Source of the DNA: an uncultured bacterium
Lineage (GTDB): Bacteria; Patescibacteriota; Minisyncoccia; Phycocordibacterales; UBA9973
Direction of reading: 5' to 3'
Assembly (NCBI GenBank): GCA_903825255.1
Contig: CAIJZZ010000003.1
Location: forward strand, 1-39,528
DNA length: 39,528 nucleotides
Positions 5,891-14,075 of the stretch are shown one piece after another. The position numbers and the translations under genes were made by a program. Within the stretch, counting starts at the first letter, position 1; each line of letters begins with the position of its first letter. The notes below the pieces were generated by a model, which was given only the letters and a program-made list of their open reading frames with translations, made no database searches and was not told the origin of the DNA.

Positions 5891-8293
5891 ATGGAACTAA
5901 AAGATAGGCTAGAACTAAAATTTCGCCTAGATGAAAATCAAAAAAAAGCTTTAAGGAAACTGAAGCTTTTTTCTGTTCATGACCTACTCTTTCACTTCCC
6001 TGTTCGCTACTCAGACATAAGTGAAGTAAAACAAATAGATGAATTGATTCCTGGAGAAGTAGCCACCATCTATGGGAAAATTTCCAAATTGAAAACAAAA
6101 AAAAGTTTCCGTACCAAAATCCCAATGGGCGAAGCAGAGATAGAGGATATTACTGGAAAAATAAAAATCCTTTGGTTTCATCAAGCCTACTTAGCCAAGA
6201 TGATCCATGAGGGACAAAATGTAAAACTCACCGGGAAAGTCACCGAAGGTAAACAAGGAAAATATCTCACTAATCCTGAATTTGAAAAGACACCTGATTT
6301 ACCGATTGATGCACACAATACTTTATTTGCGAAAGACGGAGTACAAATAGATAATTCTGGTTTTTCCTACCCAATTTATCATGAGACTAAAGGTATCACC
6401 TCTAAATGGTTTTATCACGCGATAGAAAAAATTTTAAAAGATAAAACATTGGAGAAAATCGAAGATTATATCCCTACAGAAATTTTAAAAAAATATAATT
6501 TACCAACTTTAAAAACCTCCCTCATCTGGATTCATAAACCAAAAAATAAAAAAGATGCCGAGTCTGCTCGCAAGCGTTTTGCTTTTGAAGAAGTTTTTTG
6601 TATTCAGCTTGAACGCCAACATGACAAAACAGAATATCGTAAAAATAAATCATTTCAAATAATCCCCAATGAAAAGGAAATGTCAGAATTTTTAAAACGC
6701 TTCCCTTTTACCCCAACTAAATCTCAAATAAAATCTATCAATACCATCCTAGAAGATATGGCTAAAACTTTTCCCATGTCTCGCCTTCTTGAAGGCGATG
6801 TGGGCTCTGGTAAAACAGCTGTCGCTGCGACAGCCACATATATAGCTACCAAACAAAGACCCTTCGACTTCGCTCAAGGCAAGCCTCAAAGTTTTGGGAA
6901 TCTTCAGGTCGCTTACATGGCTCCAACAGAAATCCTAGCTACCCAACACTTTGAATCCTTTATTCAATATTTTAAACATTTACCAATAAACATTGCTCTC
7001 ATTACTGGCTCAGGTTGTCGTAAATTCCCTTCTAAAGTTGCTTCAAAAATTTTAAAGCCAAAGGATATGTCTGTAGGAGCCTTCGCAACAAACAAATCTA
7101 ACTTGCCCTTCCAGGACGGAGTGCAAGCGACGGAAGACATATCTTTGGCGGAACAAAATTGGACAAATATTTCTCGCTCTCAACTTTTAAAATGGGTCGC
7201 AAATGGCGAAATACCAATTTTAATCGGCACTCACGCCCTCATCCAAAAAACAGTTAAATTTAAAAATTTAGCACTCGTCGTTATTGATGAACAACATCGC
7301 TTCGGTACTGAACAGCGTAGAAAATTAGTAAGAAAAGATAATATCGCTCCACATTTACTTTCCATGACCGCTACCCCTATTCCCCGCACTCTCGCTCTCA
7401 CTATTTATGGAGACTTAGATTTATCACTTTTAGATGAAATGCCGGCTGGGCGTAAAGAAATAATCACTGAAATTATTACCCCAGATAAACGAGCGGGAAC
7501 ATATGAAAAAGTTCGGGCAGAAATACAAAAAGGCAGACAAGTTTATATTATTTGCCCGAGAATTTTTGAAGCTGAGGAGACGGGCGAAGAGATGTTTGTT
7601 TCAGAGAGCCTTGGTAGGAGCGACGGCGACGGACAGAGAAAATTTTTAACAAAAAATTTTCGTGCTCTCGGAAATAAACATCTTGAAGCGGATCGTGTCC
7701 AACTTGAATTAAGGTCAGTTACAGCAGAAGCGAAACGTTTAAAAAAAGAAGTTTTTCCTGAATATGAAATCGGGGTACTGCATTCCAAAATGTCCAAAGA
7801 AAAAAAAGAAAAAGAGATGGAAAAATTTACTAAAGGATTTTTAAATATTTTAGTAGCTACTTCGGTAATAGAAGTCGGAGTCAATGTCCCGAATGCTACC
7901 GTTATCATCATTGAAGGTGCAGAACGTTTTGGACTTGCTCAACTGCATCAGCTTCGCGGCAGAGTTATAAGAAGTACTCATCAGGCTTATTGCTATGTTT
8001 TTGCTGAAGCTAAAAGCCAAAAAACAATAGATAGATTAAAAGCTTTAAAAACCGCTAAAAATGGTTTTGAATTAGCGGAATTAGATTTAACCCTAAGAGG
8101 TGCTGGAGAATTAGGTGGCACGAAACAATGGGGTATCACTGATTTAGGAATGGAAGCAATAAAAAATATTAAAATGGTAGAAGCCGCCCGCACCGAAGCT
8201 ATCCGCCTGATTTCGGAAAATTCCGAACTTTCTAAATATCCTTTGTTAAAAAGTAAAGTTAAAGAAAAGGTTTCTGAATTCCATTTCGAATAA
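5891..8293 (+). CDS. recG: ATP-dependent DNA helicase RecG, with several in-frame insertions
   Basis: OB wedge domain, Walker A LLEGDVGSGKTAVA, MAPTEILATQHFE, DEQHRFGTEQR, MTATPIPRTLAL, IEGAERFGLAQLHQLRGRV. Confidence 0.95.
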   Translation: MELKDRLELKFRLDENQKKALRKLKLFSVHDLLFHFPVRYSDISEVKQIDELIPGEVATIYGKISKLKTKKSFRTKIPMGEAEIEDITGKIKILWFHQAYLAKMIHEGQNVKLTGKVTEGKQGKYLTNPEFEKTPDLPIDAHNTLFAKDGVQIDNSGFSYPIYHETKGITSKWFYHAIEKILKDKTLEKIEDYIPTEILKKYNLPTLKTSLIWIHKPKNKKDAESARKRFAFEEVFCIQLERQHDKTEYRKNKSFQIIPNEKEMSEFLKRFPFTPTKSQIKSINTILEDMAKTFPMSRLLEGDVGSGKTAVAATATYIATKQRPFDFAQGKPQSFGNLQVAYMAPTEILATQHFESFIQYFKHLPINIALITGSGCRKFPSKVASKILKPKDMSVGAFATNKSNLPFQDGVQATEDISLAEQNWTNISRSQLLKWVANGEIPILIGTHALIQKTVKFKNLALVVIDEQHRFGTEQRRKLVRKDNIAPHLLSMTATPIPRTLALTIYGDLDLSLLDEMPAGRKEIITEIITPDKRAGTYEKVRAEIQKGRQVYIICPRIFEAEETGEEMFVSESLGRSDGDGQRKFLTKNFRALGNKHLEADRVQLELRSVTAEAKRLKKEVFPEYEIGVLHSKMSKEKKEKEMEKFTKGFLNILVATSVIEVGVNVPNATVIIIEGAERFGLAQLHQLRGRVIRSTHQAYCYVFAEAKSQKTIDRLKALKTAKNGFELAELDLTLRGAGELGGTKQWGITDLGMEAIKNIKMVEAARTEAIRLISENSELSKYPLLKSKVKEKVSEFHFE
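6859..6899 (+). repeat. In-frame insert in recG encoding RPFDFAQGKPQSFG
   Basis: CCCTTCGACTTCGCTCAAGGCAAGCC lies between the Walker A helix and the VAYMAPTEILATQHFE motif, where RecG proteins normally have a short linker; short CCTT...AAGG inverted repeat. Confidence 0.6.
7057..7149 (+). repeat. Second in-frame palindromic insert in recG (outer arms GCCAAAGGATATGTCT / AGACATATCTTTGGC)
   Basis: Inverted repeat with a single bulge flanking about 60 nt with nested CTTGC...GCAAG; encodes PKDMSVGAFATNKSNLPFQDGVQATEDISLA between ITGS and NGEIPILIGTHALIQ. Confidence 0.7.
7590..7683 (+). repeat. Third in-frame palindromic insert in recG (copy 1 of the SLG-DGDGQR element)
   Basis: Outer arms AGATGTTTGTTTCAGAGAGC / GCTCTCGGAAATAAACATCT, 28-nt core, inner hairpin GAAAATTTTT-AACA-AAAAATTTTC. 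Confidence 0.85.
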
Positions 8294-12650: not shown

Positions 12651-14075
12651 ATGACAATACAACCAAAACTCCAAGTAACTGGCTACCGTGGTATCTGGGG
12701 AGAGACATTAACTGAAGAAATAATTAGAAAATTTGTTGGTGCTTACATAAGTTTTATAAAAGAAGATGTAAAAAAAAATAATCCAACGATTTTAATCGGC
12801 CGAGATGGTCGTGAAAGTGGGCTCGAAATAAAAAAAATAATTATTGATAAACTGTCTAAAACAGGTGTCAATCTAATTGACGGAGATATCTTACCTACCC
12901 CGACCATTTTATTTGCCGTACGAAAGCACAAATATGACGGAGCAATTATTATTACTGCATCGCACAATCCAAAAGAATACAATGGCATTAAATTTGTGAC
13001 AAATCAGGCACTTTTGACAAATGAAGCACAAGTGGAAATAATAAAAAAATATTGTGAAGAAGAAAATATCCAGGATGTTGTTTTTGGAAGCCTTGGAAGT
13101 CGCGACGGCGACGGACAGAGAGAATTTTCAACAGAAAATTCTCGTGCTTCTAAAAACAACATCCTGGATATCCCTCCTTTCCCTAAAGAACATGCAGATG
13201 CAATCATTTCTAATATTAATCTTGAGGCAATAAGAGCTAGAAAATTTAAAGTGGCAGCTGATATGATCAATGCTTCTGCTTGTGTGATTGATCCATATTT
13301 ATTTGAACAATTAGGTGCAGAATTAATTCCTCTTAACAATATTCCGGATGGAAAATTCGCCCACAGACCAGAACCAGCCGTAGAAAATCTTGAAGATATA
13401 GGTCACCTAGTTAAAGAATCAGGAGCTGACATTGGTTTTGCTCACGACCCAGATGCAGATCGACTTGTCATAGTAGATGAAACTGGAAAAGTTATTTCCG
13501 AAGATTATACTTTAGCTTTCGGAGTAAAAAACATACTTTCAAAACATCCGGGAGAAAATGTAGTCATGAATCTATCCACTTCCAGTATGGTCTCAGATAT
13601 TGTAGAAAAATATCATGGTAAATGTTTCCGAACAAAAGTCGGGGAATCAAATGTTTTAGAAGGAATTCAGAAAAACAAGGCAATCATCGGAGGTGAAGGC
13701 ACAAGTGGAGTTATTTACCCCGCTATCAATACGAGCCGAGACGGTTTTGTCAGTTTATCTTTTGCCCTAGAGCTTTTAGCTGAAAGAAAACAAACTGTCA
13801 GTGAATGTGTCGCTACACTACCTAAATATTATATGAAAAGAGATAAATGGCCAGTTAGTGAAAACTTAAATGATATTTATCAAAAATTAAAAACTCATTT
13901 TAAAGATGCAGAAGTAAATGAACTAGATGGACTACGCCTAGATTTTAGTGATAAATCTTGGCTTCATATCAGACCTTCAATAACTGAACCGATTATCCGA
14001 CTTTTCGGTGAAGCAAAAACACCTGAACGTGTAGAAGCCTTATTTAATGAAGCAAAGTTGACTTTAAACTCGTAA
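12651..14075 (+). CDS. Phosphomannomutase/phosphoglucomutase, with an in-frame insertion
   Basis: GRDGRESG, active-site TASHNPKEYNGIK, DPDADRLVIVDE, GEGTSGV, C-terminal RPSITEPIIRLFGEA. Confidence 0.94.
   Translation: MTIQPKLQVTGYRGIWGETLTEEIIRKFVGAYISFIKEDVKKNNPTILIGRDGRESGLEIKKIIIDKLSKTGVNLIDGDILPTPTILFAVRKHKYDGAIIITASHNPKEYNGIKFVTNQALLTNEAQVEIIKKYCEEENIQDVVFGSLGSRDGDGQREFSTENSRASKNNILDIPPFPKEHADAIISNINLEAIRARKFKVAADMINASACVIDPYLFEQLGAELIPLNNIPDGKFAHRPEPAVENLEDIGHLVKESGADIGFAHDPDADRLVIVDETGKVISEDYTLAFGVKNILSKHPGENVVMNLSTSSMVSDIVEKYHGKCFRTKVGESNVLEGIQKNKAIIGGEGTSGVIYPAINTSRDGFVSLSFALELLAERKQTVSECVATLPKYYMKRDKWPVSENLNDIYQKLKTHFKDAEVNELDGLRLDFSDKSWLHIRPSITEPIIRLFGEAKTPERVEALFNEAKLTLNS
13066..13171 (+). 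repeat. In-frame palindromic insert in the phosphomannomutase (copy 2 of the SLG-DGDGQR element)
   Basis: Outer arms ATATCCAGGATGTTGTTTTTGGAAGC / GCTTCTAAAAACAACATCCTGGATAT (25/26), core CTTGGAAGTCGCGACGGCGACGGACAGA, inner hairpin GAGAATTTTC-AACA-GAAAATTCTC. Confidence 0.9.

Follow-up and report, generated by a model that had tools for sequence, protein, structure and literature searches.

Two genes of an uncultured bacterium of the Patescibacteria, encoding a phosphomannomutase (PMM) and the helicase RecG, each contain a similar long palindrome within the reading frame, which raises the question of what this sequence is and how it came to lie inside two unrelated proteins. Both genes are located in the stretch of DNA analyzed here, 39,528 nt of contig CAIJZZ010000003.1, hereafter the window. 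A sequence-only reading of the window had interpreted the palindromes as a mobile element that tolerates translation, analogous to the Rickettsia palindromic elements (RPE) and not known to belong to a named family.

The window contains two copies of one ~102-nt element (Table 1). The layout originally described for the PMM copy, with 26-nt outer arms matching at 25 of 26 positions, a 28-nt core and a perfectly paired 10-bp hairpin whose loop is AACA, was confirmed exactly, as was the presence of the same layout and loop in the recG copy. By direct reading, the two 28-nt cores are identical at 25 positions and differ at three, and the two differences in the inner stem are both paired (G-C to A-T and C-G to T-A). 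The arms are 26 nt long and 96% complementary in the PMM copy and 20 nt long and 90% complementary in the recG copy, with the same 54-nt spacing, and the stems of the right inner hairpin (13120-13129/13134-13143 and 7638-7647/7652-7661, respectively) are 10 nt long and 100% complementary. One part of the description had to be refined: the left part of the presumed core folds as a second hairpin (13099-13112), and the element is therefore a three-way junction, in which an outer stem of ~24 bp with a copy-specific sequence leads into a junction bearing two small hairpins, whose loops are GACG and AGCA. The window has exactly two occurrences of an 18-mer from the core, which was absent from all 100 shuffled versions. 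The RNA folding z-scores are -10.1 for the PMM copy and -5.6 for the recG copy, with no shuffled sequence being as stable. Scans with the Rfam 15 covariance models, both at the gathering thresholds and at E<=5, produced no match at the element.

Table 1. Coordinates of the two element copies, their parts and their host genes in the window
Feature	Position	Strand	Evidence
Palindromic element, PMM copy (whole)	13066..13171	+	Inverted-repeat check, RNA fold; covariance-model match of 109.5 bits, the best in the genome
5' outer arm, PMM copy	13066..13091	+	25/26 complementary to 13146-13171
Left inner hairpin, PMM copy, GTCGC-GACG-GCGAC	13099..13112	+	MFE fold; covariation at several pairs in 60 copies
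Right inner hairpin, PMM copy, GAGAATTTTC-AACA-GAAAATTCTC	13120..13143	+	100% complementary; 96.8% of cells paired in 60 copies
3' outer arm, PMM copy	13146..13171	+	Complementarity to the 5' arm
Palindromic element, recG copy (whole)	7590..7683	+	Inverted-repeat check, fold; covariance-model match at 7586-7687, 90.1 bits
5' outer arm, recG copy	7590..7609	+	90% complementary to 7664-7683
Left inner hairpin, recG copy, GC-GACG-GC plus closing G-C pair	7617..7630	+	Alignment to the PMM copy; 60-copy pairing test
Right inner hairpin, recG copy, GAAAATTTTT-AACA-AAAAATTTTC	7638..7661	+	Complementarity
3' outer arm, recG copy	7664..7683	+	Complementarity to the 5' arm
Host gene, phosphoglucomutase/phosphomannomutase (PMM)	12651..14075	+	Pfam PGM_PMM I-IV; single open frame
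Host gene, ATP-dependent helicase recG	5891..8293	+	Pfam; single open frame; alignment, in which the loop holding the element is short in relatives

The structure was tested on a gap-free alignment of 60 copies (A1) and a 102-nt model with 39 pairs. In this alignment, 88.9% of structure cells are paired, as compared with 67.1% for shuffled and 38-51% for slid alignments; doubly changed cells number 528 versus 156, and 34 of the 39 pairs change on both sides. The left inner hairpin is less complete, with two of its five pairs unpaired in most copies. The form observed class-wide is arm - CTTGCGCAG - GCGC GACG GCGC - GAGCAGAGCA - AATTTTC AGCA GAAAATT - ATGCGTG - arm.

Searches of related genomes with the core and with a covariance model revealed many further copies. 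The core, with at most three mismatches, was found in 42 of the 147 genomes of the taxonomic family, whereas a reversed control pattern gave a handful of hits. Of 80 genomes of the genus, 70 were positive with the covariance model built from the 60 copies, which gave 320 matches in total, eight of them in the source genome. In a sample of the class Paceibacteria, matches were present in 41 of 384 genomes and 28 of 293 genera, and in a phylum-wide sample of 380 a single genome outside this class had a match. When 84,980 species in a whole-genome collection were scanned with a degenerate pattern of the family-A core, 42 stretches were retrieved; wherever a record title gives a taxon, it is Nomurabacteria, Taylorbacteria, Parcubacteria, Paceibacterota or Patescibacteria, the remaining records carrying no taxon name. 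None of the named hits in this collection, searched with the family-A core pattern only, belongs to the Rickettsiales. The family is large and apparently undescribed. We found no account of such elements in Patescibacteria in the literature searched, which was restricted to open-licence papers.

Comparison of orthologous sites provided both filled and empty versions. Most RecG relatives have a short loop reading ICPRINEPDPEKEMAV... at the position where the recG of the window contains the element, and two relatives have different inserts at this loop in the alignment. The clearest case is the atpD-atpC spacer, read by eye from the sequence: G133 holds the whole palindrome including the arms, whereas the corresponding spacers are AATTTT in G121 and AAAAT in G068 (87% and 85% DNA identity to G133, respectively), neither with a hairpin. 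A copy at the same place in G112 brings the number of filled species to two; several further species have short spacers, and others have different palindromic families in the gap. The surface loop of Fmt has at least six unrelated in-frame palindromic inserts across species (L133-L182), as well as short empty versions and nested or half-deleted remnants of the element family (e.g. L135, L171, L172); the fmt gene of the source genome (L148) contains a sister family with a different core. Replacement of one element family by another at one site was seen at several sites, including fmt and atpD-atpC. These comparisons show that the complete palindrome, with its arms, is what inserts, and that its targets are short intergenic gaps and the surface loops or linkers of proteins. 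No transposition event was caught among the genomes compared, all of which are separate species and mostly metagenome-assembled genomes (MAGs). The A/T-richness of the insertion sites prevents any clean target-site duplication from being seen; the candidate repeats ATATCC (PMM) and TAAAAAT (atpD-atpC) are both ambiguous. In a second genus, the empty-site comparison was limited to two genomes with differing synteny. The atpD-atpC spacer (L274-L303) is also a hot spot, with palindromic inserts of several unrelated families in about half of the 30 species sampled and very short spacers in others.

The arms and the core follow different courses. At orthologous sites, pairwise comparisons of arm pairs gave 233 changes on both sides that still pair and 27 that are broken, together with one-sided changes of which 73 still pair and 60 break pairing; these figures are pairwise counts, and the changes are not independent of one another. 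Arms of different species are 65% identical when they come from one site and 40% identical when the sites differ, as opposed to 86-89% for the core. The two uvrD copies of G074 have identical cores and arms that are only 32% identical; therefore, cores undergo homogenization or copying, whereas arms are specific to the locus. Similar arms nevertheless recur across genes, GGRCAAAATRTTCTCGAGCG in uvrD, ksgA, uvrC and recG, and AGTTCTTGAGAAAAGCC at atpD-atpC and dus. Because of this recurrence and the absence of hairpins at empty sites, our inference is that the element brings its arms along, and that these subsequently drift but are kept complementary. Orientation is also variable, with opposite orientations at the orthologous PMM (in G133), tsaD, uvrD and dus sites; the dus copy of G124 (L032/L037) matches the whole-inverted dus copy of G074, arms included, and is in frame. 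Between species at one site, arms change yet stay complementary, orientation differs, and the core differs while the site keeps an element. Template switching has been proposed for the maintenance of other palindromes (PMC6649704), and correction by template switching would be a natural mechanism for the upkeep of these arms.

All of the approximately 40 genic copies of family A, the family closest to the element, are stop-free and in frame; their hosts are recG, PMM, uvrD (two sites), uvrC, fmt, ksgA, tsaD and dus. The sense copies use a single frame (..LGRSDGDGQRKFSAENFRGE..), although two antisense frames are equally open in the 60 copies (42 and 41, versus 41 for the frame used). Antisense genic copies are few, with in-frame examples in tsaD, dus and uvrD, and intergenic copies between co-directional genes have no orientation bias (7 same, 10 opposite). 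The equal openness of the antisense frames and the lack of an intergenic bias suggest that the sense bias within genes reflects selection on the hydrophilic peptide. From the open reading frame through genic copies we infer that they add a hydrophilic and probably disordered loop to the host protein, SLGSRDGDGQREFSTENSRAS in the case of PMM, where the element encodes the linker that connects domains I and II (around residues 139-174). In the AlphaFold model of PMM (mean pLDDT 84.6), residues 139-169 of this linker score below 50; both the translation and the disorder of the insert are predictions.

The PMM site has a further peculiarity. In many palindrome-free relatives, PMM is encoded by two overlapping ORFs, domain I and domains II-IV, which are split precisely at the linker (L072-L078, L087-L094) and joined there by a ATTATGAACATTCCTAA-like sequence. 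In the source genome, G097, G068 and G133, an element spans this junction and PMM is one continuous frame. Some relatives have a single-frame PMM without a palindrome, so that the change may have gone in either direction.

No mobilizing enzyme could be assigned. Proteins with the Y1_Tnp domain number from 0 to 13 per genome in the genus, and a RAYT/Y1 transposase was rejected as the mobilizer: the copy number of the element is not correlated with that of Y1_Tnp (Spearman -0.02, p=0.84, 80 genomes), and the 25 genomes lacking Y1_Tnp have a mean of 3.8 element copies. As a separate observation, up to 13 RAYT-like matches is a load carried by genomes of about 1 Mb or less, e.g. G092, G101 and G109. 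The sampled intergenic copies have no transposase beside them, being flanked by ordinary housekeeping genes, and two scans of viral contigs for a phage carrier, with exact patterns only, gave no match. With regard to the GTAG or CGTC tag that accompanies the 20-40 bp hairpin of REP/REPIN sequences, GGTAGGA is common at the junction, with GGGAGGA or GGAAGTC in its place in many copies. Intergenic copies often lie 3-30 nt from the end of a neighboring gene, and convergent gene pairs look enriched for them (12/30 versus 24/130 background pairs); an apparent avoidance of divergent promoters disappeared against the background of neighboring pairs (1/30 versus 7/130). T-runs are rare (8 and 7 of 56 copies), and therefore most copies are not intrinsic terminators.

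We consider it likely that the element is a non-autonomous mobile palindrome of about 102-110 nt, and that the superfamily to which it belongs is endemic to Paceibacteria (Patescibacteria). In the proposed mechanism, the conserved two-hairpin junction would be recognized by an unidentified trans-acting enzyme, probably on single-stranded or cruciform DNA; the arms would be kept matched by arm-to-arm correction, either through template switching during replication or through conversion within the hairpin; and gene-breaking copies would be purged, leaving only intergenic and in-frame ones. The initial proposal of an RPE-like mobile palindrome tolerating translation is supported by the empty orthologous sites, the copies in unrelated genes, the in-frame genic copies and the absence from Rfam. 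The refuting outcomes that it had named did not materialize: no distant phylum was found to have the element, and alignments do show an insertion. Beyond the reach of that reading were the class-wide spread, the copy-specific arms that remain complementary, the sharing of sites by several families, the core swaps and inversions, and the frequent split of PMM at this point in palindrome-free relatives. A bolder reading, which we regard only as a possibility, is a class-wide modular superfamily of hairpins with interchangeable cores and self-maintaining, copy-specific arms, where an unknown trans-acting enzyme would read the folded three-way junction rather than a terminal sequence, and where essential proteins in reduced genomes would be repeatedly remodeled and sometimes fused, as in the joining of the two split-PMM ORFs.

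Several alternatives to a mobile palindrome were weighed. A functional structured RNA, either a cis-acting mRNA element or a 3'-end stabilizer, that is tolerated in genes without being selfish DNA would account for the strongly conserved structure and loops, for the proximity of copies to gene ends and for the apparent enrichment in convergent pairs. We find this explanation unlikely given the lack of an orientation preference between co-directional genes (7 versus 10), the antisense in-frame copies in tsaD, dus and uvrD, the T-runs in only 8 and 7 of 56 copies, and the patchy presence at any given gene; still, an as yet unrecognized function could also underlie the strong class-wide conservation of the core. 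It is similarly improbable that the core alone moves, entering pre-existing hairpins with locus-specific arms. Copies of one genome with identical cores and unrelated, well-paired arms favor this idea, but the empty atpD-atpC and recG sites are free of hairpins and similar arms recur across genes, so that it is contradicted at two sites, although it could still hold at some terminators.

Even less credible is a spliced, bypassed or self-excised element, such as a mini-intron or a translational bypassing element, whose peptide is never made. By analogy with the mitochondrial byps, the long stem would juxtapose the flanks; however, the genic family-A copies are all in frame and stop-free and mostly use one frame though others are open, which would be needless if the insert were removed, and no intron or ribozyme of Rfam matches. 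An immobile feature, whether an ordinary conserved protein loop or a chance palindrome, would fit the two stop-free, in-frame copies of the window but is practically ruled out, because the sequence recurs far beyond chance, not only in many unrelated genes but also between genes, and in either orientation.

Among known systems, the closest kind to the Paceibacteria element is represented by the Rickettsia and Wolbachia palindromic elements, whose in-frame insertions of 100-150 bp extend the products of unrelated genes by a peptide (PMC3767692, PMC10969869); the Paceibacteria element shares the size class, the in-frame insertion into unrelated genes and the added peptide. It differs in the two-hairpin junction core, the unrelated host lineage, the reuse of sites by several families, and the arms: the repeats of RPEs reportedly become less alike with time (PMC6649704), whereas the Paceibacteria arms change sequence and keep pairing (233 kept versus 27 broken). 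We do not class the element as an RPE because the host lineage differs and the reported arm decay is not seen, with the reservation that no RPE sequences were aligned. REP/REPIN sequences with RAYT (Y1) are likewise small dispersed palindromes near gene ends, and Y1_Tnp proteins are present in the genus; however, the Paceibacteria element is longer, forms a three-way junction, is frequent inside genes, has a copy number independent of Y1_Tnp and is not flanked by RAYTs. MITEs, including ERIC and the enterobacterial RU elements, are also non-autonomous, have inverted repeats and are sometimes intragenic with an open frame (PMC2759123, PMC10969869), whereas the Paceibacteria arms are copy-specific rather than shared terminal repeats, no clear target-site duplication was found, and no parent transposon was found in the flanks of the sampled intergenic copies. 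Coding palindromes in the mitochondria of Nematomorpha are long inverted repeats within genes whose complementarity is actively maintained, with template switching proposed (PMC6649704). They resemble the Paceibacteria element in lying within coding genes and in the upkeep of complementarity; they differ in being perfect repeats in mitochondrial genes, and a dispersed shared core and multi-gene mobility are apparently not part of that description. The byps of Magnusiomyces capitatus mitochondria are palindromic inserts in protein genes that are not translated (PMC6649704), whereas the genic family-A elements are always in frame.

Protein-coding mobile palindromes were previously known chiefly from Rickettsia and Wolbachia, and Patescibacteria provide a second case that is both independent and broad. 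Since the copies number in the hundreds and filled, half-deleted and empty versions of many orthologous sites are available, the old question of whether new protein segments are built by selfish DNA becomes directly testable, and the same sites constitute a natural experiment on how the arms of a palindrome stay matched. Genome annotation is also affected, in that Nomurabacteria proteins contain element-derived loops such as LGRSDGDGQRKFSAENFRGE.

Several structural variants were observed in the course of these comparisons. At the uvrD N site, L018, L035 and L064, an extra hairpin is present inside the left inner hairpin (e.g. AGAAATGTGCTGGGAGCACATTTTC), in frame where the copy is genic. At the uvrD N site of L048, the core is deleted, whereas the arms retain perfect complementarity and the reading frame (GCAATCTTGC...GCAAGATTGC). 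L268 (G336) is another long palindrome between genes, built on a different core (TCGGAAAAATCAGAAAAACC...), suggesting that more element families exist in Paceibacteria.
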